Assembly (NCBI RefSeq): GCF_003432075.1
Contig: NZ_QWBU01000006.1
Location: 1-64,000, forward strand
Length of the DNA: 64,000 bases
Direction: 5' to 3'
Origin: Shinella sp. WSJ-2
Lineage (GTDB): Bacteria > Pseudomonadota > Alphaproteobacteria > Rhizobiales > Rhizobiaceae
The position numbers and the translations under genes are program-made. The notes under the pieces were generated by a model, which saw only the letters and a list, made by a program, of their open reading frames with translations, was not told the DNA's origin and ran no database searches. This document shows, one piece after another, positions 1-17,662 of this stretch. How positions within the stretch are numbered: the first letter of the stretch is position 1; each line of letters starts with the position of its first letter.

Positions 1-151
1 CCTTCAGACGCAGCGCCTCTTCAACCGAAATCTCGTCGAACGGGTTCATCGACATCTTCACATTCGCAAGCTCAACGCCTGACCCATCCGCCTTGACGCG
101 GATCTTTACGTTGTAATCAACAACGCGTTTGACGGGCACCAGCAGTTTCAT
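1..151 (-). CDS. etfB: Electron transfer flavoprotein beta subunit (N-terminal part, runs off the window)
   Basis: The first 50 codons are visible on the minus strand. The protein starts [20 protein letters not shown] and goes on with the [18 protein letters not shown] stretch that is characteristic of EtfB. EtfB pairs with EtfA to carry electrons from acyl-CoA dehydrogenases to ETF-ubiquinone oxidoreductase. An AAGGAG ribosome site lies just upstream and the preceding isomerase gene ends 16 bases away, so it is probably the last visible gene of the acyl-CoA dehydrogenase operon. EtfA would be expected beyond the window edge (inference). Confidence 0.93.
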
Positions 152-167
152 GGAATTCTCCTTGTGG

Positions 168-1025
168 TCAGCAGAGTGTGCGAAAACGATCGACCATCAC
201 GTCGAGAACCTCGCCGGGATCGCGTTTCCACCAGTTGTTTGCGGAAAAAATCTCGACCTCGCACGGGCCGGTATACCCTGCGCCTTCAACGTTCGCACGT
301 ATCGCCTTAAGATCGGCGACGCCATCGCCCATCATGCCGCGGTCCAGCAGCACGTCACGCGTGTCGGCGAGCCAGTCGCAGAGATGATAGCCGAAAATCC
401 TGTCCTCGCCGGCGCGTCGCAGCTGAGCGCCCAAATCACTGTCCCACCAGACATGATAGACATCGATGGCAACGCCGAGGTTCGGCGCATCGACCGCATC
501 GCAGATATCGAGGGCATCCCGCACCGTGGTCAGGCAAGAGCGGTTTCCGGCATAGGCAGGATTGAGGGGTTCCAGTGCCAGTTTGACCTTGCGTTCTGCC
601 GCATAGGGTGCGAGATCGGCGACGCGGTCCGCCACGATCTTCAGGCTGTCGGCCGTGCCCTTGCTGGCAGGATGCACACCGCCCACGACAATCGTCAATA
701 CGGCAGCCCCGAGGCCTGCGGCCATGTCGATGGCGGCTTTCGCCTCGTCGAGAACGGCGATTTTGTCGATGGCATCCGTGCCGACGAGAAACGGCGTACG
801 GCAAAGGCCAGCAACGGAGAGGCCAGCCTTGCGCGCCCGCTCACCGATCTGCACGGCTCCCAACCCGATCTCCCGCCGCCAGAAGACGATCGAGCCAAAG
901 CCGCGCGCGGCGCAGGCATCGATGACGCGTTCCGGCTCCCATCCGGCGCCGCGGCCTTCGAGATTGTGACCGAGGCTCGCGGTGTTGAGCGCAAGCGCGG
1001 AATGGTCGCTTGAAAAATCACGCAT
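168..1025 (-). CDS. Sugar phosphate isomerase/epimerase family TIM-barrel protein
   Basis: About 285 residues, the usual length for the xylose isomerase-like TIM-barrel family (AP_endonuc_2). Recognisable parts are the [10 protein letters not shown] strand (a metal-ligand Glu region), the [11 protein letters not shown] strand with a metal-binding Asp/His pair, and the C-terminal [20 protein letters not shown] segment. Such proteins isomerise or epimerise sugars and related hydroxy-ketones with a divalent metal. The previous gene stops in a GTGA overlap. The start could be that GTG (base 1031) or the ATG two codons later, which I chose. Its place beside a DUF993 protein suggests the two act on the same carbon skeleton, but the substrate is unknown. 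Confidence 0.85.
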
Positions 1026-1027
1026 CG

Positions 1028-2176
1028 TCACGCGCCATAGACGGAGAGCAGCTTTTTCACGCGTGCAACGGCAAGTTCCGGATCACGCAACAGCCCGCAT
1101 TGATCGGCGAGGCGGAAGATCTCGGTGAAATAAGGCAGCGGCCGCATCGCCTGCGCGCCGTTCAACATCACGAAATGATCCTGGAAGCCATTCAGCCAGG
1201 CGAGGAAAACGACGCCCGTCTTGTAGTATTGCGTCGGCGCACGGAAAATCAGGCGCGCAAGCGGCACGGTTGGATCGAGCGTCGCGCGGAAGGCTGCCTT
1301 GTCGCCCTCGCCCAACCGCTCGACCGCATAGGCCGCGGCAGGTGCGAGCGGGTCGAAGATGCCAAGCAGTGCATGCGAAAACCCTTCACTGTCACCTTCG
1401 ATGAGTTCAGGATAATTGAAGTCGTCGCCCGTATACATTTTCACGCCGGCCGGGAGCCGGCGGCGCATGGCGATCTCTTTCTCCTTGTCGAGGAGAGAAA
1501 TCTTAATCCCGTCAACCTTGGCCACGTTCGCGTCGATGACGGCAAGTGCCGTCCCCATGGCGGGCTCGAATGCCGAGCCGCCCCAATAATTGGCGAGCTG
1601 CGGGTCGAACATATCCCCGAGCCAGTGCAGAATCACCGGCTCGTCGCAGGCGGAAATCACATCGGAATAGACCTTGAGGTAGTCCTCAGGCCCCTTCGCA
1701 ACACGCACCAGGGCACGTGACGCCATGAGGATCAGGCGGCCACCGAGTTTTTGGATGGCCTCCGCCTGCTCCAGATAGGCTCGGCGGACGTCGTCCAGAC
1801 GTGTCACTGTTGCAGGATCAAGATGATCCGTGCCGCAACCATTGGCCACGAGCGCATCCGGAAGCTCTTCGCGCGTGCGGCGAATCAGCTCCAGCGCACC
1901 CGGCCAATCAAGCCCCATGCCACGCTGGGCGGTGTCCATCGCCTCGGCAATGCCAAGGCCAAGCCCGGCGAGGTAGCGGCGAAACTCCATCGTCTTTGCC
2001 CAGTCCACCGTCGCACGGCCCGAGGGGTCGTTTGCGGTGAAGGGATCGGCGACGACATGGGCGGCGGAATAAACAACACGCGCCGGGTTTTTGCCGAGCG
2101 TTGCGGCCGCGATCGGTGTTCCGGCCAGGACATAATCGGTGCTGCGGCCGGCGGGGTCTGGAAGAGCAATTTTCAT
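1028..2176 (-). CDS. DUF993 family protein (dihydrodipicolinate synthase-like)
   Basis: 382 residues, matching the DUF993 family often annotated as dihydrodipicolinate synthase-like. These are predicted TIM-barrel lyases or aldolases without a well-established reaction. Visible segments include DALVANGCGTDHL, AEAIQKLGGRLILMASRAL and VILHWLGDMFDPQLANYWGG. It follows the SDR gene by 11 bases and overlaps the next gene, so it is in the acyl-CoA dehydrogenase operon. In a catabolic pathway a retro-aldol or lyase step is the natural guess, but this is inference from fold and neighbourhood only. Confidence 0.85.
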   Translation of the reverse strand: MKIALPDPAGRSTDYVLAGTPIAAATLGKNPARVVYSAAHVVADPFTANDPSGRATVDWAKTMEFRRYLAGLGLGIAEAMDTAQRGMGLDWPGALELIRRTREELPDALVANGCGTDHLDPATVTRLDDVRRAYLEQAEAIQKLGGRLILMASRALVRVAKGPEDYLKVYSDVISACDEPVILHWLGDMFDPQLANYWGGSAFEPAMGTALAVIDANVAKVDGIKISLLDKEKEIAMRRRLPAGVKMYTGDDFNYPELIEGDSEGFSHALLGIFDPLAPAAAYAVERLGEGDKAAFRATLDPTVPLARLIFRAPTQYYKTGVVFLAWLNGFQDHFVMLNGAQAMRPLPYFTEIFRLADQCGLLRDPELAVARVKKLLSVYGA

Positions 2177-2187: not shown

Positions 2188-2967
2188 TCAGAAGCGCGGA
2201 ACGAGCATGCCGGCATCGGCCGGGATCGTTAGTCCGGTGGTGTAGGGAAGCCGCCCGGTGGCCAGCGATGCGATCAGCTTGCCGACTTCGGCCGGCTCCC
2301 CGACGCGCGGAAAGAGCGTGAGGCCCTGGGCGGCGCGCTCGCGGTAGGTGTCGATTACGGGAGCTGTCATTTCGGTCGCGATCAGGCCGGGCTGGACATC
2401 ATAGACGGCAATGTTCTCCCGCCCGAGCCGGACGGCAAGGGTCTTGGACACCATCGACGCCGCAGCTTTCGAGGCGCAATATTCAGAGCGCTGTTCTGCG
2501 ACCGCCACGGCGTTCGACGAGGTGACGTTGACGATCGAATAGAACTGGGAGGAGCGAGGGCGCGCAAGCACGCGGCGCGCGAAGGCTTGGCTCAGGAAGA
2601 ACATGGCTTTCGTGTTGACGGAAAAGCAGCGGTCCCAGCTTTCCTCCGAGACCTCCAGCATATCGCCGCGCCTGAGCACACCGACGCCGGCATTGTTGAC
2701 CAGCGTGGTGAGTGGCCCGAGTTTCTGCTCGATCGCATCGAATGCCGCATCGTGCCCACCGATCGCCGCGACGTCGAATGCCGCGGCAGCGACCGGAACG
2801 TCATAGGTGGCGATGCGCGCGACAGCAGCGGCAAGCTCGGCGTCTTCGACGGGCCCGTTGACGGCAATCGCAAAGCCTTCGCGCGCCAGAGCCTCCGCAA
2901 CGGCAAGACCGATGCCGCGGGATGAGCCGGTGACCAGCGCCGCCGGCCGATTGTCAGCAGCACTCAT
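2188..2967 (-). CDS. SDR family oxidoreductase (3-ketoacyl reductase-like)
   Basis: 259 residues, a classical short-chain dehydrogenase. The NAD(P) site is TGSSRGIGLAVAEALA near residue 13, followed by the LVNNAGVG strand. The catalytic set is the Ser in IVNVTSSNAVA and the YCASKAA motif (Tyr-x3-Lys). The start is the ATG that overlaps the acyl-CoA dehydrogenase stop (ATGA), which indicates translational coupling. A longer reading frame extends upstream but only inside the ACAD gene. It probably oxidises a hydroxyl made after the hydration step, or reduces a keto group; the direction cannot be read from sequence. Confidence 0.9.
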   Translation of the reverse strand: MSAADNRPAALVTGSSRGIGLAVAEALAREGFAIAVNGPVEDAELAAAVARIATYDVPVAAAAFDVAAIGGHDAAFDAIEQKLGPLTTLVNNAGVGVLRRGDMLEVSEESWDRCFSVNTKAMFFLSQAFARRVLARPRSSQFYSIVNVTSSNAVAVAEQRSEYCASKAAASMVSKTLAVRLGRENIAVYDVQPGLIATEMTAPVIDTYRERAAQGLTLFPRVGEPAEVGKLIASLATGRLPYTTGLTIPADAGMLVPRF

Positions 2968-4106
2968 GCCCTTGCCCCCTTTTTCAGGAGTTCGCGCGCG
3001 ATGATCATGCGCTGGATCTGGTTCGTACCTTCGTAGATCTGCGTGATCTTCGCATCGCGATAAAGACGCTCCACTTCGAAGCCGCGGATATAGCCGGAGC
3101 CACCAAAGACCTGCACGGCATCGGCGGTGCGCTGCACGGCCATGTCGCCGGCAAAGCATTTTGCGATGGAGCAGGCTTTCGTCGCATCCGCACCGCTGTC
3201 GATTTTGGATGCTGCGGAATGGACCAGCAGGCGCGCGGCCTCGATGTCCTTCGCCATGTCGGCGAGCAGCCATTGCACACCCTGGAAATCGGAGATCGCC
3301 TTGCCGAATTGCTTACGCGTGCCAGCATAATCCAGCGCCGCCTCGAGGCCGGCCTGCGCGATGCCGACCGCGAGCGAGGCGATGCCGACGCGCCCCTTGT
3401 CGAGCACCGACATCATCATGTGGAAACCGCGGCCTTCCGTGCCGAGCAGGGCATCGGCCGGCAGGCGAACGTCCGAGAAATTCAGCGCGCCGACCTGGCT
3501 GGCACGCTGGCCCATCTTGTGTTCCTTCGGCCCCTTTTCGACACCATCGGCATGGAGGTCGACGATGAAAATCGACATGCCACGGTTGCCGGCATCCTTG
3601 TCGGTCCGGGCCAGAACGAAACCGTAGTCGGCAACCGGCGCGTTGTGAATCCAGATCTTGCCACCGTTCAGCCGCCAGCCGTTCCCGTCACGCGCCGCGG
3701 TGGTGCGAATGCCGGAGACATCCGTGCCGGCTTCGGGCTCCGTGATGCAATAGGCAACCTTCGAGCGCATGCCGAGAATTTCCGGCAGCAGCGCCTGCTG
3801 GCTTTCCGTGCCATGGCGCACGAGGAGGCTCGATATCAGTTCGATCAGTCCGCACTGGTCGGCGACCGAGGCATAGCCGCGACTCAATTCCTCCATAACG
3901 AGCGCGTAGGTCAGCGTATCGAAGCCCGGCCCGCCGAGAGCCTCCGGCACGCCTATGCCGAAAAGGCCAAGCTTCGCCATTTCCTCATAGAGCTCGGCGG
4001 GAAAACGCTCTTCCCGGTCAAGTTCCTCCGCCAAAGGACGGATCGTTTCGTCAGCAAAGGCGCGCGCCATCTCGCGCACCTGCTCCTGCGTTTCGGTGAG
4101 ATACAT
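2964..4106 (-). CDS. Acyl-CoA dehydrogenase
   Basis: 380 residues, the standard length of the FAD-dependent acyl-CoA dehydrogenase family. It shows the CITEPEAGTDVSGIRTTA FAD and substrate loop, the KIWIHNAPVADYGFVLART middle domain, and the C-terminal QIYEGTNQIQRM motif carrying the catalytic Glu. The enzyme introduces a 2,3-double bond into an acyl-CoA and passes electrons to ETF, and an ETF-beta gene lies at the end of the same operon. It is the first gene of the operon and faces a palindrome about 20 bases upstream of its start. The acyl substrate is unknown; the family includes short- and branched-chain enzymes. Confidence 0.93.
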   Translation of the reverse strand: MYLTETQEQVREMARAFADETIRPLAEELDREERFPAELYEEMAKLGLFGIGVPEALGGPGFDTLTYALVMEELSRGYASVADQCGLIELISSLLVRHGTESQQALLPEILGMRSKVAYCITEPEAGTDVSGIRTTAARDGNGWRLNGGKIWIHNAPVADYGFVLARTDKDAGNRGMSIFIVDLHADGVEKGPKEHKMGQRASQVGALNFSDVRLPADALLGTEGRGFHMMMSVLDKGRVGIASLAVGIAQAGLEAALDYAGTRKQFGKAISDFQGVQWLLADMAKDIEAARLLVHSAASKIDSGADATKACSIAKCFAGDMAVQRTADAVQVFGGSGYIRGFEVERLYRDAKITQIYEGTNQIQRMIIARELLKKGARA

Positions 4107-4125: not shown

Positions 4126-4141
4126 GTAACTATCTAGTTAC
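4126..4141. promoter_or_regulatory. Perfect palindrome, candidate TetR-family operator (site 1)
   Basis: GTAACTATCTAGTTAC has two perfect 7-base arms around TC. It lies between the divergent acyl-CoA dehydrogenase and aldo/keto reductase genes, about 20 bases before the dehydrogenase start. Related sites occur at 4233, 7913 and 17778. The TetR gene at 17936 is the likeliest owner (inference from position). Confidence 0.7.
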
Positions 4142-4232: not shown

Positions 4233-4248
4233 TTCACTATTCAGTTAC
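4233..4248. promoter_or_regulatory. Imperfect copy of the TetR-type palindrome (site 2)
   Basis: TTCACTATTCAGTTAC keeps ACTA and AGTTAC at the same spacing as the perfect site 107 bases away, with changed outer left-arm bases. It sits 15 bases before the aldo/keto reductase start, so each divergent gene of this intergenic region has its own site. Confidence 0.5.
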
Positions 4249-4262
4249 TTATGGAGGAAAGC

Positions 4263-5279
4263 ATGCACCCGGGAGAAAAGCGAAAATTTGGCCGGACAGA
4301 CCTTGAGGTTACCGCCTTTGGCTTCGGCACGGCGCCGCTCGGCAATATTTTCCGCGAGATCGACGAGGCGACATCTCAGGATATGTTCGCGCGCGCCTGG
4401 GAAGCCGGCGTGCGATTCTTTGATACCGCCCCGATGTACGGTCATGGCCTTGCCGAACTGCGAACAAGTCATGCTCTCCGCTGGAAGAACCGTGACGATT
4501 TCGTGCTCGCATCCAAGGTGGGGCGCCTTCTGCGCCCGGCGCGGCGTGACACGATCAACTTCGCGCCGTGGACGAACGCCGCGCCCTTCACCATGCATTT
4601 CGACTACAGCTACGATGGCACCATGCGGGCGTTCGAGGACAGCCTGCAGCGGCTGGGGCTGGAACGCATGGATATGTGCTTCATACATGACATCGACGTT
4701 TTCACGCGGGGAAGCGAGCAGCCAGAAGTATTCGAGCAGGCGATGGACGGCGCGTGGCGGGCGCTGGAACGGTTGCGTTCGGAAAAGGTCGTGAAGGCGA
4801 TCGGTGTCGGTGTCAACGAATGGCAGGTCTGCCATGACGCGCTTCTACGCCATGATTTCGACTGCTTCCTCCTGGCTGGCCGCTATACATTGCTTGAACA
4901 GGAAGCGCTGGATGCGTTCCTCCCGCTGTGCGAAGCACGCGGTGCTGCGGTCGTTGTCGGCGGTGGCTTCAACTCGGGTATCCTTGCCACGGGTGCGAAG
5001 GAGGGCGCGAAATACAATTATGCACCCGCACCCCGCGAGATCATGGAAAAGGTCGCGAAGATCGAAGCCGTATGCGCCGAGCATAGCGTGCCGCTTGCCG
5101 CAGCAGCGCTGCAATTCGTCGTCGCTCATCCTGCCGTTCCGTCCTTCATGGCGGGCACGCGCACGATCGAACAGTTGGACCAGAATCTCGCCTGGTTCTC
5201 CCACGCGATCCCGGCCGATTTCTGGGCGGACCTGAAGAAAAAAGGCCTCCTGCGCGAGGATGCGCCTGTTCCGGCGTAA
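4263..5279 (+). CDS. Aldo/keto reductase, aldose dehydrogenase-like
   Basis: 338 residues in the aldo/keto reductase family. The catalytic tetrad is visible: Asp54 and Tyr59 in FFDTAPMYGHG, Lys85 in LASKVG and His142 in FIHDIDV. Overall it resembles the subgroup of D-threo-aldose (L-fucose) dehydrogenases and pyridoxal 4-dehydrogenase, which oxidise rather than reduce. The start is the ATG 5 bases after GGAGG; an in-frame ATG four codons earlier overlaps that ribosome site. It is divergent from the acyl-CoA dehydrogenase operon and shares its regulatory region. A weak G+C hairpin follows the stop. Confidence 0.9.
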   Translation: MHPGEKRKFGRTDLEVTAFGFGTAPLGNIFREIDEATSQDMFARAWEAGVRFFDTAPMYGHGLAELRTSHALRWKNRDDFVLASKVGRLLRPARRDTINFAPWTNAAPFTMHFDYSYDGTMRAFEDSLQRLGLERMDMCFIHDIDVFTRGSEQPEVFEQAMDGAWRALERLRSEKVVKAIGVGVNEWQVCHDALLRHDFDCFLLAGRYTLLEQEALDAFLPLCEARGAAVVVGGGFNSGILATGAKEGAKYNYAPAPREIMEKVAKIEAVCAEHSVPLAAAALQFVVAHPAVPSFMAGTRTIEQLDQNLAWFSHAIPADFWADLKKKGLLREDAPVPA

Positions 5280-5289
5280 ACAGACATAA

Positions 5290-5315
5290 GCCCGCGTTGC
5301 GAAGGCATCGCGGGC
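5290..5315 (+). terminator. Possible terminator after the aldo/keto reductase
   Basis: GCCCGCG and CGCGGGC form a 7-base stem with a 12-base loop 11 bases after the stop codon. There is no T-run, so termination is only possible, not shown. Confidence 0.35.
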
Positions 5316-5540
5316 CTCTAGCGCACCAGTATTGCCGTGAAGTCATAAGCGCCATCCGCAAAGGCACCCGGCATTGTCCTTCAACAGTCGATACCATCCG
5401 TATCGGCGGCCCGTTGCGAAGGCGACGTCCTCGCCTGCGGACGAGAGCGACATCTCGCGCCTCGGCCCTAAATGCAGTCCGGCAGAGTGACGGCATGCAC
5501 GCCAGCGGCTTGCGCTCGTTGCGCCGCCGCCTCGCGGAGG

Positions 5541-6314
5541 CTACTTGCCGAAACGGGTCGGCCGTTTCTGCCGGTAGGCAGTCAGTCCTTCCGTCAGATC
5601 ATCGGATGCAGCCGCCACGGCACCGGCTAAGGCTTCCACGACCCGCTCATTTTCCTCCCCTTCGGCGGCGTTGATCAGCATCTTTGTCAGTTCTGTCGCG
5701 CGCGGAGACCGTTTCAACACGCGTCCTGCGGCAGCTTCGGCGGCCGCAGCCCCCTCTCCCGTCGCGACGACCTTATCGACAAGGCCGGCGGCAAGCGCTT
5801 CTTGCGCGTTGTAGATCTCGCCGAAAAGCGCCATACGGCGAACGAGTTGCGTTCCGAAGCGACGAGAGGCGCGCTGCGTGCCGGACCAGCCGGGGATGAT
5901 GCCGAGGCCGGGCTCCGGCTGGCCGATCTTCACATGCTCCTCGGCGATACGCAGGTCGGCACAGGCGGCGAGCTCCAGTCCACCACCGAGCGCGTGGCCA
6001 TTCAGCACCGCGATCAACGGCACGGTAAGGCGTGCCAGTGCGTCAAATGCACCATGCCCGTCACGCAACCAGCGGCGCGAAAACGTTTCCGCGTCAAGGT
6101 TGCCCCACGCCTCGATATCACCACCCGCACAGAAGGACTTGCCGCCCTCGCCCGCGACAATTGCAACGCGGGCATCTGAGCGCTCGATGGTCCGGCAAGC
6201 CTTCAGCAGTGCGTCGATCATATCCTCATCGATAGCGTTCAGCTTTTCCGGGCGGCGCAGCGTGATCCGCGCGACATGTCCTTCGATGGAAAGATCGATA
6301 CGCGGATCGCTCAA
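5541..6314 (-). CDS. Enoyl-CoA hydratase/isomerase family protein
   Basis: 257 residues of the crotonase family. The oxyanion-hole loops are SFCAGGDIEAWG and NGHALGGGLELAACADLR, and both Glu positions used by true hydratases are kept (in RIAEEH and GQPEPGLG). It would add water across the enoyl-CoA double bond made by the acyl-CoA dehydrogenase. Its start overlaps the CoA-transferase stop (ATGA), so the two are co-translated. Substrate chain and stereochemistry cannot be read from the sequence. Confidence 0.9.
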   Translation of the reverse strand: MSDPRIDLSIEGHVARITLRRPEKLNAIDEDMIDALLKACRTIERSDARVAIVAGEGGKSFCAGGDIEAWGNLDAETFSRRWLRDGHGAFDALARLTVPLIAVLNGHALGGGLELAACADLRIAEEHVKIGQPEPGLGIIPGWSGTQRASRRFGTQLVRRMALFGEIYNAQEALAAGLVDKVVATGEGAAAAEAAAGRVLKRSPRATELTKMLINAAEGEENERVVEALAGAVAAASDDLTEGLTAYRQKRPTRFGK

Positions 6315-7882
6315 AGCGCCAGCCCCATGGTGTCTGCGCGAAACAGCGCATCGTCCATCACCTTGAGCGTTTTCGAAACTCGCAACGGCGTCGCGGCCTG
6401 ATTGAGGACATCGCGCTGGAGATCAAGACCCGGCGCGATTTCGGTAACGATCAGCCCGTCCGCATCAAGCTCGATGACGCAACGTTCGGTGACATAGGTG
6501 ATCTCCTGCCCCTGCGCCCGCGCGCGCTTGCCGGAAAAGCTAACCTGATCGACTTTCGGTACGAATTTTGCGATGCGCCCCTCCTTGTCGATGACCAGGC
6601 AGCCATCCTCCACATGCATCTTCGCGCCGGCATTGAAATTGCCCGAGAAGACGATCTTCTTCGCGCGTGAGGTGATGTCCACGAACCCGCCGGCGCCCGC
6701 CGTGCGGTGCGGCGTTGCCGCGAGCCGGCTGACATTGACCGAACCTTCGGCATCGATTTCGAGGAAGGATAGGAGCGAGCAATCGAACCCGCCCGCCTGG
6801 AAATAGCAAAACTGGTGCGGCGAGGCGACGAACGCCTCGGCATTGGAAGCGCAGCCAAATTTGAAATCGAGAAGCGGCACACCGCCCACGGCGCCCTGCT
6901 CGATCACCCAGGTGACTTTGCCGTGCAGCCCCTCCTCGATCAGGATGCGCGGCACATTGGCAGAAATGCCGAAACCGATGTTGACCGCCCAGCCATCCCT
7001 CAACTCCTGCGCCACACGCCGCGCGATGACCTTGCCGACATCGAGTTCCGGCAGCCGGAAGGTTTCGAGCGGGCGGAAGAGTTCACCTGAGATCGCCGGA
7101 TCATAGGGCGTTGCCGTCGTCTGCAACTGGTCGGGCGCCTCGACGATCACGTCGACGAGAATGCCGGGGACGCGCACATCATGCGGACGCAAGGTTCCGC
7201 TTGCCGCGACGCGCTTGACCTGCGCGATGACGAGACCGCCGGAATTGCGCGCTGCGAGCGCCATTTCCATCGCGCCGAGGGTCGCGCCCTCCTGTTCGAA
7301 GGTGAGATTGCCCTTCTCGTCTGCGGTCGTCGCGCGGATGATCGCGACATCGGGGCGGATCGCCGGGAAGTGCAGCCAGTCTTCGCCTTCGAAGGTAACG
7401 CGCTTGACGAGCGGCGCGGCGCGCGCGCTGGCGTTCATTGCACAACCGTCCTGCTCAGGATCGACGAAGGTCTCCATGCCGACCTTCGTCAGCACGCCCG
7501 GGCGCTTGGCTGCCCCCTCCCGCAGCATGTCGAAGACGATTCCGGACGGCACGTTCCAGGCGGCCAGTTCCTCCTTGAGGATCATCTGCCAGATGAGCGG
7601 CGGCTCGGCATTGCTCGGACCGGAAGGATAGGAGCCCCCGATGATCTTCACCAGCATGCCGGGTTTGGCGATGTGATCCACACCACGCGTGCCGAAAAAA
7701 TCGCCGGCAGCAATCGGATGGATGGAGGTAAGACCACGCGGATGGCCCTCGCTGTCGAAGCGCTCACCCAATGCCTTCAACACGGCGTCGGGGCAGCAAA
7801 GGCCGGAAGAAGAGTTCACAGCAACGACTGCTCCATCCCTGATAAGCCGGACAGCCTCCTGCGCAGTCTTCACCTTCTTCAT
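6311..7882 (-). CDS. Acyl-CoA:acetate/3-ketoacid CoA-transferase (fused subunits)
   Basis: 523 residues with two CoA_trans domains in one chain, as in the YdiF / acetate CoA-transferase type. The N-terminal half begins KTAQEAVRLIRDGAVVAVN. The second half carries VTWVIEQGAVGGVPLLDF, whose Glu is the expected site of the covalent CoA ester, and later AGAGGFVDIT. The ATG at 7882 is preceded by GGAG at good spacing. A frame nine codons longer starts closer to the operator and has no such site. The enzyme would activate a carboxylic acid by moving CoA from acetyl-CoA or succinyl-CoA, which suits an acid produced by the aldehyde dehydrogenase nearby. Confidence 0.9.
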   Translation of the reverse strand: MKKVKTAQEAVRLIRDGAVVAVNSSSGLCCPDAVLKALGERFDSEGHPRGLTSIHPIAAGDFFGTRGVDHIAKPGMLVKIIGGSYPSGPSNAEPPLIWQMILKEELAAWNVPSGIVFDMLREGAAKRPGVLTKVGMETFVDPEQDGCAMNASARAAPLVKRVTFEGEDWLHFPAIRPDVAIIRATTADEKGNLTFEQEGATLGAMEMALAARNSGGLVIAQVKRVAASGTLRPHDVRVPGILVDVIVEAPDQLQTTATPYDPAISGELFRPLETFRLPELDVGKVIARRVAQELRDGWAVNIGFGISANVPRILIEEGLHGKVTWVIEQGAVGGVPLLDFKFGCASNAEAFVASPHQFCYFQAGGFDCSLLSFLEIDAEGSVNVSRLAATPHRTAGAGGFVDITSRAKKIVFSGNFNAGAKMHVEDGCLVIDKEGRIAKFVPKVDQVSFSGKRARAQGQEITYVTERCVIELDADGLIVTEIAPGLDLQRDVLNQAATPLRVSKTLKVMDDALFRADTMGLAL

Positions 7883-10487: not shown

Positions 10488-11980
10488 GCGATCCAATGCG
10501 TGCGCTTGCCGATTTCGACATGAACGGACTTCACCTGCGTATATTCCTCCACACCATAGATGCCGGCTTCGCGGCCCCAGCCGGACTGCTTGAAACCACC
10601 AAGCGGCATTTCGGGGCCACCGGCCATGATCGTATTGACCCAGAAGCGCCCCGCCCGAACGCGGCGGCTCACCGTGAGCGCCTTGTCGATATTCTTCGTC
10701 CAGACGCTCGCGGCAAGCCCGTAAACCGTATCGTTGGCGAGCTGGATGGCTTCTTCAACCGTATCGAAATGCATGGAGCACAGAACGGGACCGAAAATCT
10801 CGTCGCGGGCGATCGCCATGTCGCTGGAGACGCCGGAGAAGAGCGTCGGCGCGATATATTGGCCCCGGCCGAGATCGACCGCCGCGCCGCCGGTCAGCAG
10901 CTTGGCGCCGCCCGCCTTGCCTTTTTCGATATAGTCGAGGATCGTCGCATTCTGCGCTTCGGTGGTGATGGCACCGACCTGCGTGCGCTCATCAAGAGGA
11001 TCGCCGACGCGGATCTTCTTCATCTTCTCGACAAGCAGTTTTTCAAACTTTGCCGCCACTGAGCGCTCGACGATCAGACGTGAAGACGAGACGCAGCATT
11101 GCCCTGTGTTGAAGCTGATGCCGAAGGCAGCGCCATCGGCCGCATCTTCAAGATCGGAATCAGCAAAGACAATGATCGGGTTCTTGCCGCCCAGTTCGAG
11201 GCCGAGCTTCTTGAAGTTGCTGTCGGCGGCGGCGTGGACGCAGGACCGCCCGACGGCCGTCGAGCCGGTGAAGGAGAGCATGTCGACGTCGGGATGCTCG
11301 GAAAGCGCCTGGCCGATCGTGCGGCCGGAGCCGGTGATAACGTTGTAGACACCGGCCGGCAGGCCCGCCTCGGCCAGCACTTCGGCAAGCAGCAGCGTCG
11401 TCGCGGCGGTAACTTCCGAGGGCTTTACGACCATCGTGCAGCCCGACGCCAGAATGAAGGGTACGCGCTCGCAGAGGATGAGGAACGGGAAGTTCCACGG
11501 TGTGATCAGGCCGACGACGCCGATGGGTTCGCGCAGCACCATGCCGAAGAGATCGTCACCGAGCGAATTGAAGCTGTCGCCATGCAGCATGCGGGCGGCA
11601 CCGGCACCCACTTCGAAACAGGCGATGCAATGGTCGATCTCGCCGCGCGCCTGGGAAATCGGCTTGCCGTTTTCCAAGGCTTCCCAGTAGGCAATCTCGT
11701 CGCGACGGCGGCGCAGGATTTCGGCGACGCGCAGCAGGACGCTGCCGCGTGCCGCCCCCGAAAGGCCAGCCCAGCGACGATCTTCGAAAGCCCGGCGCGC
11801 GGCGGCAACAGCGGCATTCAGATCATCGATCGTGCAACGCACCGTGCGCGTGACCGGCGTGCCGTGGCCCGGCGAAGCGCGCTCGAAGTGCTCCGCGCCA
11901 TCCTTCCATTGCCCGTCGACAAAAAAGCCGAAGGTGCGCGCCGCTGTCGGGGCAGAAAGAAACTGGTTTTTCTGGTCCAT
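10484..11980 (-). CDS. Aldehyde dehydrogenase
   Basis: 498 residues of the NAD(P)-dependent aldehyde dehydrogenase superfamily, similar in length and motifs to betaine-aldehyde-type enzymes. The cofactor and general-base region LGLELGGKNPIIVFAD and the catalytic Cys in FNTGQCCVSSSRL are intact, as is the PWNFP segment. It oxidises an aldehyde to the carboxylic acid. Its coupling to the GMC oxidase suggests a two-step alcohol-to-acid conversion that supplies the substrate of the CoA-transferase (inference). It lies 24 bases after the Zn alcohol dehydrogenase. Confidence 0.93.
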   Translation of the reverse strand: MDQKNQFLSAPTAARTFGFFVDGQWKDGAEHFERASPGHGTPVTRTVRCTIDDLNAAVAAARRAFEDRRWAGLSGAARGSVLLRVAEILRRRRDEIAYWEALENGKPISQARGEIDHCIACFEVGAGAARMLHGDSFNSLGDDLFGMVLREPIGVVGLITPWNFPFLILCERVPFILASGCTMVVKPSEVTAATTLLLAEVLAEAGLPAGVYNVITGSGRTIGQALSEHPDVDMLSFTGSTAVGRSCVHAAADSNFKKLGLELGGKNPIIVFADSDLEDAADGAAFGISFNTGQCCVSSSRLIVERSVAAKFEKLLVEKMKKIRVGDPLDERTQVGAITTEAQNATILDYIEKGKAGGAKLLTGGAAVDLGRGQYIAPTLFSGVSSDMAIARDEIFGPVLCSMHFDTVEEAIQLANDTVYGLAASVWTKNIDKALTVSRRVRAGRFWVNTIMAGGPEMPLGGFKQSGWGREAGIYGVEEYTQVKSVHVEIGKRTHWIA

Positions 11981-12004: not shown

Positions 12005-13039
12005 TTACGCCGCAATGGCGATCTGTGTCTTCAGGTCCTGCGGTCGGTCGCCGAGGCTTTCGAACGCCTCCTGGATCGCATCCAGCGGATAGCTAGCCTT
12101 GGTAAAATCATCGGTACGGAACCGGTTGTGCGACAGAAGGGTCAGCGCGTCGTACATATCCTGCCCCATGCCGGCCACGGACCCCTTGAGGCTGCCCTCC
12201 TCCAGAACCGTGCGAAGAATATCGATGGGGACCGTTTCGCCCGGCGGCGTAATGCCGAAGAAGGCGACATGCCCGCCGCGGCGCGTCAGATCGAAAGCCT
12301 GTTCATACAGCTTTCGATTGCCGACGCTTTCGATGACGATGTCCGCACCGAGTCCACCGGTCATGCGAAGCACGGTCGCTTTCAGCTCCGCCGGGTCGGA
12401 GATGGCGGAATCTGCGCCGGCTTCGAGCGCCATCCGGCAGCGATCGGCCGAAAGATCCGCAATGATGATGGGAGCGGCCCCTACAAGCCGCATCATCTGT
12501 ACGTGCAGATTGCCGATCGGCCCTGCACCAAAGATGACCACTGACTGGCCGAACGAGATCCTCGCCTTGCGCGCGGCCCGAACGACGCAGGCAACCGGCT
12601 CTGTAAGGGCCAGAATCTCGTCGGAAATTGAAGCGCCGACTGGAATCGCGAGGCGGGCGGGTATGGCGACAAACTCGGCGAAAGCGCCGTCCCGGCCGAT
12701 GCCGATCTGCGTGACTTCGGCACAGTTCAGCACCTCGTTGTGACGGCACCAGAAGCAGTTGCCGCAACCGATATTGATGTCGACAACGACGCGTGCGCCG
12801 ACCGCAAGATGCCGAACATTTTCGCCACGCTCGGCGATCGTTCCGCAAAATTCGTGCCCTGGGACCAGCGGCAACTTGTCAGCGGCATAGTGACCGTTGA
12901 AGATGTGGATATCCGTGCCGCAGATGCCCGTGCGTGTCACCCGCACGAGAACATCCTCCGGCCCGATGATCGGCACCGGGACCTCGCGAAGTTCAAACCG
13001 CTTGGGCGCAGTCAGAACGGCAGCGCGCATCTTGCTCAT
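12005..13039 (-). CDS. Zinc-dependent alcohol dehydrogenase (sorbitol/threonine dehydrogenase-like)
   Basis: 344 residues of the medium-chain dehydrogenase family. Catalytic zinc ligands are Cys40 in RTGICGTDIH and His62-Glu63 in GHEF. A structural zinc loop is present with Cys92, Cys95, Cys98 and Cys106. The Rossmann motif is VVIFGAGPIGN. The sequence is nearest in style to sorbitol, threonine and related polyol dehydrogenases. It follows the second ABC permease by 7 bases and belongs to the transporter operon. It probably oxidises a secondary hydroxyl of the imported compound; the exact substrate is open. Confidence 0.92.
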   Translation of the reverse strand: MSKMRAAVLTAPKRFELREVPVPIIGPEDVLVRVTRTGICGTDIHIFNGHYAADKLPLVPGHEFCGTIAERGENVRHLAVGARVVVDINIGCGNCFWCRHNEVLNCAEVTQIGIGRDGAFAEFVAIPARLAIPVGASISDEILALTEPVACVVRAARKARISFGQSVVIFGAGPIGNLHVQMMRLVGAAPIIIADLSADRCRMALEAGADSAISDPAELKATVLRMTGGLGADIVIESVGNRKLYEQAFDLTRRGGHVAFFGITPPGETVPIDILRTVLEEGSLKGSVAGMGQDMYDALTLLSHNRFRTDDFTKASYPLDAIQEAFESLGDRPQDLKTQIAIAA

Positions 13040-13046
13040 CGCCCTC

Positions 13047-13988
13047 TCACTTTACAGTGCGCAGCTTGGCGCGGTCGATGGTCAGGGCAATGGCAACGAT
13101 CAGCACGACGCCGAAGACCATCTGCTGGCGGGTCGCATCAATCTCGAAATAGAGCATCGAAGCGCGGATGACCGCGACGATGAGTGTACCGATCACCGTA
13201 TTGACCACACCGCCTACACCGCCCGTCAACGGTGTGCCCCCGACGAGAACGGCAACGATGGCCGGCAGCAGAAAGCCGTTGGCGATGGTCGGCGCGCCGC
13301 CCGAAAGTTTCACGGCGAAGAGCAGGCCGGCGATTGCGGCGAGCGCGCCGGAGATAGCAAAAGCGAGGATCTTGTAACGCGCGACATTGAGACCTGAAGC
13401 GGCGGCGGCAAGTTCACCGGCACCGACGGCCTTCAAGGCGCGGCCGAGCGTTGTCCGGCGTTCGATGAAAAGGCAGATTGCAACGAGCACCGCGGCAATC
13501 AGCAGTTCATTCGGCACACCCCAGGTATGGCCGATCATCCAGCCAAAGGTTTCGTTGCGCTGCGTCGCATCCATGTTGAGCGCCCGCTGGCCGGAAAGCC
13601 ATTGCGCAATCGAGAAAGCGATGCCGCCGACGGCGAGCGTCGAGATGAAAGATGGCACAAAAAGGCGTGTCGTGACGTAGCCCGAAAGCATGCCGAGCAG
13701 AAACCCCGCGACGACACAGAGAACTGCGACCCACGCCCCCATCGACGCGAGATAGACCGAGGCGACGACCGTCACCATGTTGGCCATGGACTGGGCCGAA
13801 AGATCGATGCCGCCGATATAGATGGCGAAGGTAAGCCCGAGCGCCATGATGAACAGCGGCACGATATCGCCGGCGATGCCGAGCAGGTTGGAAGGGCGAA
13901 CGAAACCCGGATTGTTGATGCCGACGATCGCGACGAGCACGACCAGCGTGATCCAGGGCAGGTGCGGTTTGAGGCGCTGAATATCCAT
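13047..13988 (-). CDS. Sugar ABC transporter permease (RbsC/MglC type)
   Basis: 313 residues, highly hydrophobic, in the BPD_transp_2 permease family of ribose/galactose-type importers. The start MDIQRLKPHLPWITLVVLVA was chosen because it follows the ATPase stop by 8 bases. A frame reaching to 14639 exists only because it runs antisense-free inside the ATPase gene in another frame, and its N-terminal part is arginine-rich and not membrane-like. IGGIDLSAQSMANM and VGGTPLTGGVGGVVNTVIG are typical family segments. It forms the inner-membrane channel with the second permease at 15511. Confidence 0.9.
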   Translation of the reverse strand: MDIQRLKPHLPWITLVVLVAIVGINNPGFVRPSNLLGIAGDIVPLFIMALGLTFAIYIGGIDLSAQSMANMVTVVASVYLASMGAWVAVLCVVAGFLLGMLSGYVTTRLFVPSFISTLAVGGIAFSIAQWLSGQRALNMDATQRNETFGWMIGHTWGVPNELLIAAVLVAICLFIERRTTLGRALKAVGAGELAAAASGLNVARYKILAFAISGALAAIAGLLFAVKLSGGAPTIANGFLLPAIVAVLVGGTPLTGGVGGVVNTVIGTLIVAVIRASMLYFEIDATRQQMVFGVVLIVAIALTIDRAKLRTVK

Positions 13989-13996: not shown

Positions 13997-15502
13997 TCAG
14001 ATCATGTAGTGCAGCAGGTCGAAGGGCGCGGGCTTGGCGCCCGGTTCGCATGCGAATTGCTTCTGCATGCGCCCGTCCTTGACGACGATGATGGTGTGCG
14101 ACAGGCCGATCGCCTCTTCCAGCGTATCGGCGACGAGCACGATGCCGACGCCCGCCGCGCTCATCGCCCGGATCATGTCGTAGACGTCTTCCTTTGCGCC
14201 GATGTCGAGGCCGCGTGTCGGGTGGTCGAGCAGCATGATATCCGAGCCGCCTGACCGCCATTTGGCGAGCACGACCTTCTGCTGGTTGCCGCCCGAGAGA
14301 TTGCCGCAATCGGCAAATTCCGAATGCGCCTTGATCGAGAGTTTCTTGATCCAGTCCCTGGCCAAGGCGCGCTCTTCGGCAACCCGAAGGACGCCGCTGG
14401 TCGAATGGTTCTTCATCTGCGAGAGCGTCATGTTCTCGTAGACATTCATGCCGGCAACGATGCCTTCGATCTTGCGCTCGCGCGGGACATAACCGACGCC
14501 GTGGGCGACGGATTGGCGCGGCGAATATCCATTCGCATCCGCGCCCTTGATCTTCAACTGACCGGACACGGGCGTCAGCATGCCGTAGATCGTGCGCAGG
14601 ATTGCCTCCCGCCCGGAGCCTTCCGTGCCGACAAGGCAAAGCACCTCCCCGGCATGCACCTTGAATGAAATGTCGTGGATTCGGCCAGGCAGCCCGACAC
14701 CCGCCATCTCTACCAGCACTTTCGACTGATCATACGGCTGCTGCAGATGCTCACGGTAATACTGCTTGTCGACGTTGCGGCCGACCATCTTATGCTGGAT
14801 CGCCTCCGCCGTGGCGCCGCCACGTTCAACCACATCAACGACCTCTCCGTCTTTCATGACGTAAATGCGATCGGAGAGCTCCATCACTTCGTCCATGCGA
14901 TGCGAGACGAAGATGAAGGAGGCACGGGTCGTCAGTTCCCGGACAAGCTTGAAGAGCAGCGCCACCTCGTCCTTGGAAAGAACGGACGTCGGCTCGTCGA
15001 GCAGTATGACGAGATCGCCCTTCACGCGCTCTTCCAGCGTCAGAACCTTGGCCAACTCGACGAGTTGACGCTGGACGAACGAAAGTTTCGACGTCACCAT
15101 CGCCGGATCGATATCAAGCTTCACCTTGGCGAGCTGTGCCCTGGCCGCGCTCGCCATCGCCTTCCAGTCGACCACGCCGAAGCGTACGAACTGGCGCTCA
15201 TAGCCAAGGAAGATGTTCTCCATAACCGTCAGGTTCGGGATCAGGGACTGCTCCTGGAACACCATCCCGATGCCCTTTTCCATCGCCTGGCGCGGATTGG
15301 AAAAACGCACGCCTGCACCATTGATGAGGATCTGGCCGCCATCTGGCTGGTAGGCGCCATAGATGACCTTCATCAACGTGGATTTGCCGGCGCCGTTCTC
15401 GCCCACAAGGCCGACGATCTCACCGCGCTTGATGTGGAAGTTGATGGACTTCAACGCGTGGACGCCCGGGAATTTTTTGTCGACGGATTTCAACTCGTAC
15501 AT
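13997..15502 (-). CDS. Sugar ABC transporter ATP-binding protein (two ATPase domains)
   Basis: 501 residues with two nucleotide-binding domains, as in RbsA/MglA. Domain 1 has Walker A GENGAGKST, Walker B VILLDEPTS and an unusual signature LSFVQRQLVELAK. Domain 2 has GTEGSGREA at the Walker A position (no Lys, as is common in this family), signature LSGGNQQKV, and Walker B IMLLDHPTRGLD where His427 stands at the usual catalytic Glu. I started at MYELKSVDKKFPGV; the frame is open further upstream inside the permease gene. It lies between the two permease genes, 8 bases from each, and powers import. Confidence 0.92.
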   Translation of the reverse strand: MYELKSVDKKFPGVHALKSINFHIKRGEIVGLVGENGAGKSTLMKVIYGAYQPDGGQILINGAGVRFSNPRQAMEKGIGMVFQEQSLIPNLTVMENIFLGYERQFVRFGVVDWKAMASAARAQLAKVKLDIDPAMVTSKLSFVQRQLVELAKVLTLEERVKGDLVILLDEPTSVLSKDEVALLFKLVRELTTRASFIFVSHRMDEVMELSDRIYVMKDGEVVDVVERGGATAEAIQHKMVGRNVDKQYYREHLQQPYDQSKVLVEMAGVGLPGRIHDISFKVHAGEVLCLVGTEGSGREAILRTIYGMLTPVSGQLKIKGADANGYSPRQSVAHGVGYVPRERKIEGIVAGMNVYENMTLSQMKNHSTSGVLRVAEERALARDWIKKLSIKAHSEFADCGNLSGGNQQKVVLAKWRSGGSDIMLLDHPTRGLDIGAKEDVYDMIRAMSAAGVGIVLVADTLEEAIGLSHTIIVVKDGRMQKQFACEPGAKPAPFDLLHYMI

Positions 15503-15510
15503 GGTGCGCC

Positions 15511-16485
15511 TCACTTCACGAAGGAAACCATCTTGCGGTCGGTGGAAAGCACCACAGCAAGAATGACGAGGAGGCCGAGCACGCCGTCCTGAAGGAAATC
15601 GGGTAGGCCGATGACGACCATGCCATTGTCGATGACATTGACGATCAGCACGCCGACGAGCGCGTTCCACACACCGCCGATGCCCCCCCAGAGTGCCACA
15701 CCGCCGACGACGACCGAGGTGATGGAGACGAACATGAAGTTCGCGCCGGTAACGGACTCCGCCTGCCCGATGCGCGCCACAACAAGGATAGCAGCGATGG
15801 CGTAGAAGACACCGGCCAGCGCAAAGCCCATCACACGGACACGCGTCACATTGAGCCCGGAGGCATGCGCGAGATCCTCACCACCGCCAACGGCGTAAAA
15901 GTTTCGGCCCAGCGTCGTGTGCGTCTGGATGAACCAGCCGATGAAGAGGAAAAATCCCGCCACATAGACCATCAGCGGAAAACCGAGCCAGCGCACCGTA
16001 AGAAGACCGCGGAAGGCTGCATCACTGACCTTGACGATATCGCCGCCGGTGAGCAGGATCGCCGCACCGGTACCGACAAAGCCCATGGCAAGGCTGGCCA
16101 TGAAGGACGGAATCTTCAGCTTCACATGCACCAGCCCGTTCAAAAGGCCGATCAGGCCGCCCAGAACAAGCACAAGCGGAATGGCAATCCAACCCAGGCC
16201 GCCCAACGCGCCGCCGAGCTGTGCGAAGATGAAGGCAAAGGAGACAGCCGTCAGCGAGATCGTTCCTTCCATGGAAAGGTCGATCGATCCCATGACGATG
16301 ATGAAAGTGACGCCGACGGCGACCATAAGGGCCGGGGCCGCCGCAATCGCGATACGGGCGAAATTCCGCAACGAAAAGAAGGTCGGGTTGAGCGCGGTGA
16401 AAAAGATCACCAGCGCGATCAGCACCAGGAGTGGCGCCCATTTTATCAAGGTTTCGCGCGATAGGCGACGTGTCACGTCAGACAC
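15511..16485 (-). CDS. Sugar ABC transporter permease (second subunit)
   Basis: 324 residues, multi-spanning, of the same BPD_transp_2 permease family as the gene at 13047. It has IVMGSIDLSMEGTISLTA and VVVGGVALWGGIGGVWNALVG. Two different permeases flanking one double ATPase is a common layout for this carbohydrate importer class. The gene follows the binding protein gene by 61 bases in the operon. Confidence 0.9.
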   Translation of the reverse strand: MSDVTRRLSRETLIKWAPLLVLIALVIFFTALNPTFFSLRNFARIAIAAAPALMVAVGVTFIIVMGSIDLSMEGTISLTAVSFAFIFAQLGGALGGLGWIAIPLVLVLGGLIGLLNGLVHVKLKIPSFMASLAMGFVGTGAAILLTGGDIVKVSDAAFRGLLTVRWLGFPLMVYVAGFFLFIGWFIQTHTTLGRNFYAVGGGEDLAHASGLNVTRVRVMGFALAGVFYAIAAILVVARIGQAESVTGANFMFVSITSVVVGGVALWGGIGGVWNALVGVLIVNVIDNGMVVIGLPDFLQDGVLGLLVILAVVLSTDRKMVSFVK

Positions 16486-16546
16486 CCCTCTTATGAAAGC
16501 TCGCAGGAGATGTGGCGGCAGCCTGTGCGGCTGCCGCGGTGCCTAG

Positions 16547-17662
16547 TCAGGACTTGTACTGAATCTGACCGTTCGACGGTCCCCAGAAGTCCTTCCAGTC
16601 GTAAGCCGGTACGGAATCAAGATACTTCGCCTTGAATTCCGCCGCATCCTTTGCCGTGACGAGGATCGTCGGGCCATAGAATTCACGGTGTTCCTTCGGC
16701 TCTTCCGACGGTTTGAAGGTGCCGATGGCGGCATGGTAGGCCAACGCCGCGCTGATGCCGCCGCCCCAATGCGGATTGGTGAAGACGGTGGCGAGAAGCT
16801 GGCCGTCCATGACCATCTGCACGGCTTCCAAATTGCCGTCATAAGCGACGATCGGCATGTTCTCGATACCCTCGGCGCGCAACGCCTCGATCACGCCGTA
16901 AGCGATGTTGTCATTGGCGCAATGCACACCCTTGATCTTGTCGCCATAGCGCGTAAGGAACGAGGCCATGAGGGCCGCGCCCTTCTGGGTGTCCCAATCG
17001 GCTGGCTGCGCGTCGAGTAGTTCGATCTTCGGAAAATCCTTCAAGGCATTCTTGAGACCGGCAAGGCGCTCAACTGCGGGATTGTTTGCTGCAATGCCGC
17101 CGAGATGGACCACACCGCCCTCTCCGCCCATGGCTTCAAAGAGGATGCGCGCGGTCTCTTCCGCGGGCTTTTCATCCGACCAGGTCATATGCGATACGTA
17201 GTTATCGCCGAAATCCCAGGGATGCAGATCGTCGGTCTTGTTCCAGATCGTCGAAATATAGGCGCCGGCGGCCTGGACGGCCTCGACGACCGGGCGAGCG
17301 TTGGGACTGTCATTGGCATCACAGGCAATGGCGCAATTGCCGTTGTTCTTCGCAAGGAAGGCCTTGATGTCGGCCAGCGACTTCTCCGTCGAGCCCTCGT
17401 TGATGAGGCTTACCAGCGCGCTCTTCGGTTTGCCGAGCGATTCCACGAAGGCCTCGCCGCCGGAGACGACGGAATTCCAGTAGGCCGATGCCCGGTCACG
17501 GTAGCTCCAGGCAATTGCGGGATCCGTCAGCGCGGCACGCGCACTTCCGCCGCCAAACAGGCCCGGCATTGCCGCCGCGCCCATGCCGGCTGCTGCAGCA
17601 AACAAAAAATTGCGGCGGCTAACCGTCTCGCGCTCGATGAAATCCTTGATAAAGGTCGACAT
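16547..17662 (-). CDS. Tat-exported sugar ABC transporter substrate-binding protein
   Basis: 371 residues. The N-terminus carries a twin-arginine signal, SRRNFLFAAAAG at residues 15-26, then a hydrophobic stretch and an ARA cleavage site around residue 43. The mature part is a periplasmic-binding-protein-like 4 domain (ribose/LacI fold) with NNPAVERLAGLKNAL, VHCANDNIAYGVIEAL and MPIVAYDGNLEAVQMV. Use of the Tat route means the protein is exported folded. It is the first gene of the importer and dehydrogenase operon, with a TetR-type palindrome in the upstream gap. The ligand cannot be read from sequence. Confidence 0.92.
   Translation of the reverse strand: MSTFIKDFIERETVSRRNFLFAAAAGMGAAAMPGLFGGGSARAALTDPAIAWSYRDRASAYWNSVVSGGEAFVESLGKPKSALVSLINEGSTEKSLADIKAFLAKNNGNCAIACDANDSPNARPVVEAVQAAGAYISTIWNKTDDLHPWDFGDNYVSHMTWSDEKPAEETARILFEAMGGEGGVVHLGGIAANNPAVERLAGLKNALKDFPKIELLDAQPADWDTQKGAALMASFLTRYGDKIKGVHCANDNIAYGVIEALRAEGIENMPIVAYDGNLEAVQMVMDGQLLATVFTNPHWGGGISAALAYHAAIGTFKPSEEPKEHREFYGPTILVTAKDAAEFKAKYLDSVPAYDWKDFWGPSNGQIQYKS

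Follow-up and report, generated by a model that had tools for sequence, protein, structure and literature searches.

A putative TetR-controlled regulon joining a sorbosone-dehydrogenase-type enzyme, CoA-dependent steps and DUF993 in Shinella sp. WSJ-2

Introduction

The L-sorbose dehydrogenase (SDH) and L-sorbosone dehydrogenase (SNDH) of Gluconobacter form a known route that stops at 2-keto-L-gulonate, the precursor of vitamin C. Here we describe a gene cluster at the beginning of a 64,000-nucleotide stretch from Shinella sp. WSJ-2 (hereafter the window; the first 64 kb of contig NZ_QWBU01000006.1, C26 in our numbering of this 5.14-Mb genome, G000). The cluster has an aldehyde dehydrogenase (ALDH) very close to SNDH and a GMC oxidoreductase gene directly after it, and Gluconobacter loci hold ALDH and GMC genes inside this same kind of cluster. 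Unlike the Gluconobacter pair, the window unit adds a CoA-transferase, an acyl-CoA dehydrogenase (ACAD), electron transfer flavoprotein (ETF), a short-chain dehydrogenase/reductase (SDR), a DUF993 protein and a TIM-barrel protein. Our proposal is that a TetR protein controls the locus as one catabolic regulon, which serves a small hydrophilic polyol with a primary alcohol; in our judgement this is an even call.

Three other systems resemble the locus in part. The 1,5-anhydro-D-fructose catabolism of Rhizobiaceae is linked to the window by a sister cluster, in which 1,5-anhydro-D-fructose reductase (AFR) stands with six enzymes homologous to those of the window; the window cluster differs in having no AFR and in having ACAD, ETF, the TIM barrel and a ribose-type importer. 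Cyclohexanecarboxylate-type beta-oxidation (AliB/BadK/BadH) likewise uses an acyl-CoA dehydrogenase, an enoyl-CoA hydratase (ECH) and an SDR on a ring acid, whereas the sugar importer, the GMC/ALDH pair and DUF993 are foreign to it. The deoxyribonate oxidative pathway shares a sugar acid, a beta-keto intermediate and a final glycerate kinase, but uses a beta-keto acid cleavage enzyme (DUF849) that no scanned window gene matches. A preliminary description of the window saw a route joining sugar-type import, alcohol-to-acid oxidation, CoA transfer and beta-oxidation-like steps, and knew of no named pathway with this gene set. The protein families and a shared operator-like site support such a route. 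We also found no pathway for the set in the open-access literature, whether by product names, by anhydrofructose/anhydroglucitol degradation or by the SDH/SNDH locus, and no paper on DUF993. Locus tags of Sinorhizobium meliloti led to no pathway in that literature; they led to one expression table, in an excerpt of PMC12542648. The enzyme types are all known. Their combination, the link to SNDH and the link to the sister cluster are new to us, and the pathway is undescribed as far as the open-access literature shows.

The aldehyde dehydrogenase and its GMC partner

Window genes were typed with Pfam, NCBIfam, solved-structure matches and reading frames. The ALDH (10484..11980, minus strand) matched SNDH of Gluconobacter oxydans WSH-004 (7w5l) with 894.6 bits over 492 residues, and the next different protein of known structure scored 530 bits. 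It has two cysteines at 295-296, aligned to the same segment of 7w5l. An excerpt of PMC10602560 describes the neighbouring Cys295 and Cys296 as the redox switch of SNDH, and gives a Km of 1.06 mM and a kcat of 1.8 per s on L-sorbosone; it does not mention the genes next to that of SNDH. These modest kinetics leave room for another native substrate, and the natural job of SNDH may lie in the CoA-dependent route proposed here.

Gluconobacter itself carries the cluster. The ALDH of one Gluconobacter locus (L096) scored 942 bits to 7w5l, and the gene order there is TetR, ALDH, GMC, CoA-transferase, glycerate kinase, ACAD, SDR, DUF993, TIM barrel, ETF-beta, ETF-alpha and ETF-ubiquinone oxidoreductase. 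By sequence, Gluconobacter relatives of sorbosone dehydrogenase sit in this cluster; the WSH-004 gene itself was not located.

The GMC gene (8889..10487, minus strand; family by Pfam) overlaps the ALDH gene by four bases (ATGA), in line with the translational coupling of the two genes seen in the preliminary description. The sorbose and sorbosone dehydrogenase genes of strain T-100 are a pair. By this pair and by its place beside the ALDH, the GMC enzyme would be the counterpart of L-sorbose dehydrogenase. In strain T-100 both dehydrogenase genes were expressed together from native promoter regions, according to an excerpt of PMC8102297 in which the gene order is not stated.

A palindrome shared by the divergent promoter regions

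The locus is several divergent units, not one operon. On the minus strand, from 17662 downwards, lie the genes of the sugar-binding protein, permease, double ATPase, permease, Zn-dehydrogenase, ALDH and GMC. The next minus-strand blocks are CoA-transferase with ECH, and then ACAD, SDR, DUF993, TIM barrel and the start of ETF-beta. Two plus-strand aldo/keto reductase genes (4263-5279 and 8019-8837) stand between these blocks, and the TetR-family gene (17936..18589, plus strand; TetR_C_29 by Pfam) is divergent from the importer, which it also adjoins in relatives.

Three divergent promoter regions have a common palindrome, GTAACTANNTAGTTAC, i.e. GTAACTA-NN-TAGTTAC. A palindrome search of the window gave four matches with up to three mismatches, against 0.11 expected. 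The predicted TetR-type operators are at 4126..4141 (no mismatch), 7913..7928 (one mismatch) and 17778..17793 (three mismatches), the last between the TetR and sugar-binding protein genes; a possible weak second operator with three mismatches is at 4233..4248. In locus L024 (genome G013) the spacing between operators is short as in the window, where the glycerate kinase gene is reduced to a remnant.

In the 77 related loci (L069-L145, 1.40 Mb, all named, with the closest Shinella matches left out), 89 matches with up to two mismatches were found in 47 loci. One hundred palindromes with shuffled half-sites gave a mean of 1.5 and a maximum of 15 matches. The sites precede ACAD, CoA-transferase, sugar-binding protein or GMC genes, in genera including Gluconobacter, Pseudomonas and Variovorax. 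In Labrys, XES5 and Defluviimonas the palindrome also precedes a further importer block (GMC3-VOC-ABC-dehydrogenase), and in a Rhizobium it precedes a Gfo/Idh-DUF993-TIM block. Six of seven real stretches around seemingly off-cluster sites adjoin related genes, the seven having been picked by eye among the matches listed, so that this is not a rate. L215, L216 and L218 are window-type clusters; in L213 a Gfo/Idh-DUF993-TIM block lies just downstream of the site; in L212 a TetR homolog with a site on either side stands next to an ABC importer and a Gfo/Idh-like gene; and L214 has SDR, shikimate-dehydrogenase-like and TRAP genes near the site. No related genes were seen around the site in the L217 stretch.

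Because the divergent units share this operator-like site, they are probably one regulon, and the TetR protein would be the one that binds the palindromes. The preliminary description had spoken of one regulon, and the shared operator-like site supports this.

Conservation across genomes

Clusters of this kind are present in rhizobia, Rhodobacterales, acetic acid bacteria and others. By megablast, the region matched 311 plasmid records, 21 of which carry at least 80% of the 18.7-kb query in one place. The preliminary description had proposed a search for the same gene set in other genomes, and in that search the gene order recurred in named genomes of several orders. These plasmid matches and the recurring gene order show that the grouping is not by chance.

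The scan of named genomes comprised 80 loci, the best 80 of at least 577 confirmed relatives by DUF993 similarity, a sample that favours the window type. Flanks were at most 10 kb, so that a missing importer or GMC/ALDH pair is often a matter of range. In unannotated loci, gene calls came from a codon-usage script for which 15 window genes were the training set, and labels from blastp matches to reference proteins with at least 28% identity; some calls are wrong close to contig ends or where a long frame runs on the opposite strand (e.g., L112, L119, L125, L168, L172). A DUF993 gene was called in 79 of the 80 loci. Among these 79, an SDR gene is directly upstream of DUF993 in 69, ACAD, SDR and DUF993 are consecutive in 55, and the TIM-barrel gene directly follows DUF993 in 65. 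The best named relatives of the window DUF993, among the matches listed, are from Shinella species (91-93% identity). All 21 genomes in a survey of the genus have a DUF993 gene and nine have two copies; six of the eight second copies in other genomes of the genus were inspected. In a sample of 398 genomes of the phylum, 36 carry the gene.

Annotated relatives complete the picture of the parts that are truncated in the window. Complete ETF-beta and ETF-alpha genes follow the TIM-barrel gene in five of six inspected, the exception being Sagittula, and ETF-ubiquinone oxidoreductase comes next after the ETF genes in XES5 and Rhizobium anhuiense. An intact glycerate kinase gene follows the hydratase gene in XES5, S. 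meliloti ml46 pSymA, Paracoccus ferrooxidans and R. anhuiense, and Sagittula and Rhizobium TH2 carry a Dabb protein in its place. The record of XES5 (Roseateles sp. XES5, NZ_CP084753.1, L015) is flagged as an unverified organism, and this strain falls in the same genus as the window, probably Shinella. Contig L089, which bears the label Enemella evansiae, an actinobacterium, has an alphaproteobacterial-type cluster and is possibly assembly contamination.

DUF993

DUF993 (1028..2176, minus strand; PF06187, 584.7 bits) matches 4dnh, an uncharacterised S. meliloti DUF993 protein, by sequence. Its AlphaFold model has a mean pLDDT of 89.7. A Foldseek search with this model returned 4dnh first, followed by 3na8 and many dihydrodipicolinate synthases (DHDPS), with TMq about 0.6 and TMt up to 0.80. 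All 26 aligned sequences have Lys225, which the model places on the sixth strand of the barrel (221-226). The Schiff-base lysine of the DHDPS superfamily lies on strand 6 too (Lys161 in the E. coli enzyme). By its predicted model, DUF993 is a TIM barrel of the dihydrodipicolinate synthase/NAL superfamily with a lysine at the Schiff-base position. In DHDPS, a catalytic tyrosine, Tyr133, follows strand 5. The strand 5 region of DUF993 reads ILHWLGDM, with His184 and Trp185 invariant, as judged from the alignment and the model.

DUF993 is also found in other surroundings. Clusters of a Bradyrhizobium/Variovorax type (L142-L144, L162-L167, L170, L173) combine it with TetR, an ABC importer, Gfo/Idh and a TIM barrel; the importer is of the taurine/nitrate type by eye, and most of these clusters add an enolase-like protein of about 470 aa. 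Shikimate-dehydrogenase-like proteins occur near DUF993 or the SDR in L123, L131, L133, L135, L138, L141, L101 and L214, several of them beside TRAP importers, and these loci appear to be a further DUF993-linked pathway type. From these neighbourhoods, several related routes probably have the DUF993 cleavage in common, and the substrate of DUF993 is not necessarily a CoA ester.

A sister cluster with 1,5-anhydro-D-fructose reductase

A sister cluster is present on contig C25 of the same genome. Its proteins are identical to those of the window at 69% (CoA-transferase), 56% (DUF993), 55% (ECH), 52% (GMC), 51% (ALDH) and 37% (SDR) of positions. Beyond these it has a second GMC gene, genes for a Dabb protein and two LacI regulators, and an ABC importer of the extracellular-sugar-binding type; the stretch examined gave no gene labelled as ACAD, TIM barrel or ETF. 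Its Gfo/Idh protein is AFR, with 579.9 bits to 4koa and 575.2 to 2glx. AFR adjoins the CoA-transferase in all seven clusters in which it was seen (L022/L023, L169, L175, L177-L180), a cluster type that is partly defined by the AFR gene. A similar cluster, L129, starts inside the CoA-transferase gene, which puts the neighbour out of range.

In the rhizobial route for 1,5-anhydro-D-fructose, reduction to 1,5-anhydromannitol is followed by C1 hydroxylation by an unidentified P450-like enzyme, according to an excerpt of a 2025 review (PMC12441222). The genome of strain WSJ-2 has two P450-like genes, on contigs C10 and C22, and none on C25. Thus, C1 hydroxylation may occur in this strain, although it is not encoded beside AFR. 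The gene content suggests that a CoA route starting from the C6 hydroxymethyl group could be an alternative to C1 hydroxylation. The sister cluster would need no ACAD because its substrate already has a beta-hydroxyl. Since the two clusters share the steps from hydroxymethyl to acyl-CoA and differ in ACAD and ETF, our guess is that the window substrate does not have the beta-hydroxyl of the anhydro sugars.

Proposed pathway and alternatives

The polyol would be imported by the ribose-type ABC system. Its -CH2OH group would be oxidised by the GMC enzyme and then by the sorbosone-dehydrogenase-type ALDH to a carboxylate, of which the CoA-transferase would make the CoA thioester. ACAD would carry out an alpha,beta-dehydrogenation and pass the electrons to ETF, ECH would add water, and the SDR would oxidise the beta-hydroxyl. 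DUF993 would then cleave a carbon-carbon bond as a Schiff-base lyase, and the TIM-barrel isomerase, the reductases and glycerate kinase would tidy the products to a C3 glycolytic intermediate. We infer the binding by the TetR protein, the order of these steps, the cleavage by DUF993 and the products. As substrate, a hydroxymethyl-bearing cyclic sugar alcohol (anhydro- or deoxy-) would be the most likely class.

A bolder version of this proposal, possible but doubtful in our view, is that DUF993 marks a new, aerobic and CoA-dependent way of degrading cyclic anhydro- or deoxy-sugar alcohols, in which the hydroxymethyl group becomes an acid and then a CoA thioester, the carbons of the ring undergo beta-oxidation or elimination, and chain cleavage falls to DUF993. 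On this view, the sister cluster would provide rhizobia with their missing aerobic route for 1,5-anhydrofructose/1,5-anhydromannitol, the window cluster would be the equivalent for a substrate without the beta-hydroxyl, and SDH/SNDH would be parts borrowed from this route. With the links described here, a test of what the industrially used L-sorbosone dehydrogenase does in the cell would come within reach, DUF993, a family of unknown function, would gain a concrete assay, and the sister cluster offers named genes for the aerobic breakdown of 1,5-anhydro sugars.

Several observations weigh against the polyol regulon. We found no growth or induction data in the open-access literature. L-Sorbosone was the best SNDH substrate among those tried, according to the excerpt of PMC10602560. 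There is no thiolase among the scanned genes, and DUF993 is a candidate cleavage enzyme. We know of no precedent for an acyl-CoA dehydrogenase acting on a polyhydroxylated acyl-CoA. No hydratase gene was seen in the stretches covered of eight of eight Gluconobacter, Komagataeibacter and Acetobacter loci, two of which are short or fragmentary, and by these acetic acid bacterial loci hydration may not be essential. No CoA genes were labelled in the Bradyrhizobium/Variovorax-type DUF993 clusters, and DUF993 may act on a non-CoA intermediate. Moreover, the palindrome is not enriched in whole genomes: with up to two mismatches the genome of strain WSJ-2 has two sites (4126 and 7913) against five for a reversed-word control, a relaxed pattern gave 17 matches against 35 for the reversed word in 121 genomes of the order, and 30 genomes with the cluster gave 119 against 215. 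Because these counts are not above the control, the evidence comes from where the sites lie rather than from how many there are.

Catabolism of L-sorbose or a related ketose or polyol is one other explanation. GMC and ALDH would form 2-keto-L-gulonate, the Zn-dehydrogenase and the DkgB-like reductase would feed or drain it, and the CoA genes would serve a separate later step. The closeness of the ALDH to SNDH, which works best on sorbosone, its adjacency to the GMC gene, the DkgB-like plus-strand reductase and the ribose-type importer all fit this explanation. It leaves the CoA-transferase, ACAD and ETF of a conserved, operator-marked unit unaccounted for, which led us to reject sorbose to 2-keto-L-gulonate as the function of the whole unit. 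The modest kinetics of SNDH also speak against it, and to our knowledge a 2-keto acyl-CoA is no usual substrate of an acyl-CoA dehydrogenase. We consider it quite improbable. A compound with a sugar head and an acyl- or alcohol-type side chain, a form of the side-chain-bearing sugar-like compound of the preliminary description, is unlikely as well. Here the chain would be degraded by GMC, ALDH, CoA-transferase, ACAD, ECH and SDR and the sugar by DUF993, the TIM barrel, the reductases and glycerate kinase. Such a division splits the enzyme types cleanly; it agrees with the occurrence of DUF993 and TIM-barrel genes without labelled CoA genes elsewhere, and with acryloyl-CoA reductase as the best, below-cut-off score of ACAD. 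Against it, the AFR sister cluster keeps GMC, ALDH, CoA-transferase, ECH, SDR and DUF993 together for a substrate that has no such side chain, and no glycosidase or ester hydrolase was found among the scanned window genes (Pfam). A hydroxymethyl-bearing cyclic polyol would account for both clusters with fewer assumptions than a side-chain-bearing sugar-like compound.

It is very improbable that the locus is an ordinary peripheral fatty-acid or branched-chain beta-oxidation cluster beside an unrelated sugar operon. ACAD, ECH, SDR and ETF are indeed beta-oxidation families, and the ACAD-SDR-DUF993-TIM block stands beside a different importer in some genera. The shared operator-like site and a conserved gene order that takes in the importer and the GMC/ALDH pair argue the other way, as does the result that neither a thiolase nor an acyl-CoA ligase is among the window genes scanned with Pfam, by which a fatty-acid beta-oxidation operon was rejected. 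Other routes were also rejected. Under the inositol (iol) models, the TIM-barrel protein reached 39 of 300 bits for IolO and the Zn-dehydrogenase 196 of 450 bits for IolM, and IolG and IolE models gave no match among the window proteins tried. Key enzymes are missing, or the importer is unfit, for the acetoacetate/fatty-acid, inositol, deoxyribonate, pyridoxine, propanediol and polyethylene glycol routes. The 1,5-anhydro-D-fructose pathway was rejected for the window cluster, as no AFR or other Gfo/Idh protein was found among the scanned genes of 1-17662.

Other genes of the locus

Pfam confirmed the sugar-type ABC importer of the preliminary description, all on the minus strand: a periplasmic sugar-binding protein (16547..17662; Peripla_BP_4, with a twin-arginine start judged by eye), permease 1 (15511..16476) and permease 2 (13047..13988), both BPD_transp_2, and a duplicated, ribose-type ATPase (13997..15502; two ABC_tran stretches). 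The match of the binding protein to its nearest structure, 2rjo (270 bits), came without ligand information, and transporter homology gave no substrate. Next to permease 2 is a Zn-dependent alcohol dehydrogenase gene (12005..13039, minus strand), polyol/threonine dehydrogenase-like by Pfam and NCBIfam.

The CoA-transferase (6311..7882, minus strand) is of the fused two-domain YdiF/FadX type (CoA_trans; 342 bits to YdiF, 2ahu). Its gene overlaps that of ECH (5541..6314, minus strand; ECH_1, 166.7 bits) by four bases (TTGA), in line with the coupling described earlier; the nearest solved structure to ECH is 5zai, a 3-hydroxypropionyl-CoA dehydratase. ACAD (2964..4106, minus strand) has the N, M and C domains of Pfam, and its gene overlaps the SDR gene by four bases (ATGA). 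Its best NCBIfam score is for acryloyl-CoA reductase (375 of 640 bits), and the second, for cyclohexane-1-carbonyl-CoA dehydrogenase (318 of 650 bits), is half of the cut-off. The SDR (2188..2967, minus strand; adh_short) is 3-ketoacyl reductase-like, with 329 bits for PRK12745 against a cut-off of 250, and was the only one of ten window proteins above an NCBIfam cut-off among the matches listed. Pfam also bore out the DUF993 and TIM-barrel genes of the preliminary description. The TIM-barrel protein (168..1025, minus strand; AP_endonuc_2, PF01261, 136.7 bits) is sugar isomerase/epimerase-like, its nearest solved structures are 3ju2 and 3qc0, and no NCBIfam equivalog came near its cut-off.

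In addition to the genes named in the preliminary description, we found the SDR, the Zn-dehydrogenase, the TetR gene, two plus-strand aldo/keto reductases and a glycerate kinase remnant. The reductase at 4263..5279 (PF00248, 149.7 bits) is L-galactose dehydrogenase-like, with 97 bits to 7lh6, its nearest structure, for a query starting at 4254. The reductase at 8019..8837 (PF00248, 149.6 bits) is DkgB-like, at 226.6 of 327 bits under the NCBIfam equivalog cut-off. A bacteriophytochrome histidine kinase (20792-22960) with an HWE kinase and response regulators adjoins the cluster and has no link to it.

The preliminary description gave ACAD its own ETF-beta. The ACAD family was confirmed, whereas the window holds just the N-terminal 50 codons of ETF-beta (1..151, minus strand), cut by the contig end and 98% identical to residues 1-50 of XES5 ETF-beta. 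Four near-identical N-terminal pieces of ETF-beta are present in the genome (2-151; C28:2-631; C24:510092-510721; C8:3-116), 98-100% identical to XES5, and in three cases the piece stands at the start of its contig. Apparently the genome has several nearly identical copies of the ETF genes, at which the assembly broke. Glycerate kinase has decayed to fragments within 261 bases (5280..5540, minus strand), in which two colinear blocks match parts of the XES5 gene at about 80% identity, and a 67% identical homologue is encoded elsewhere in the genome, on contig C12.

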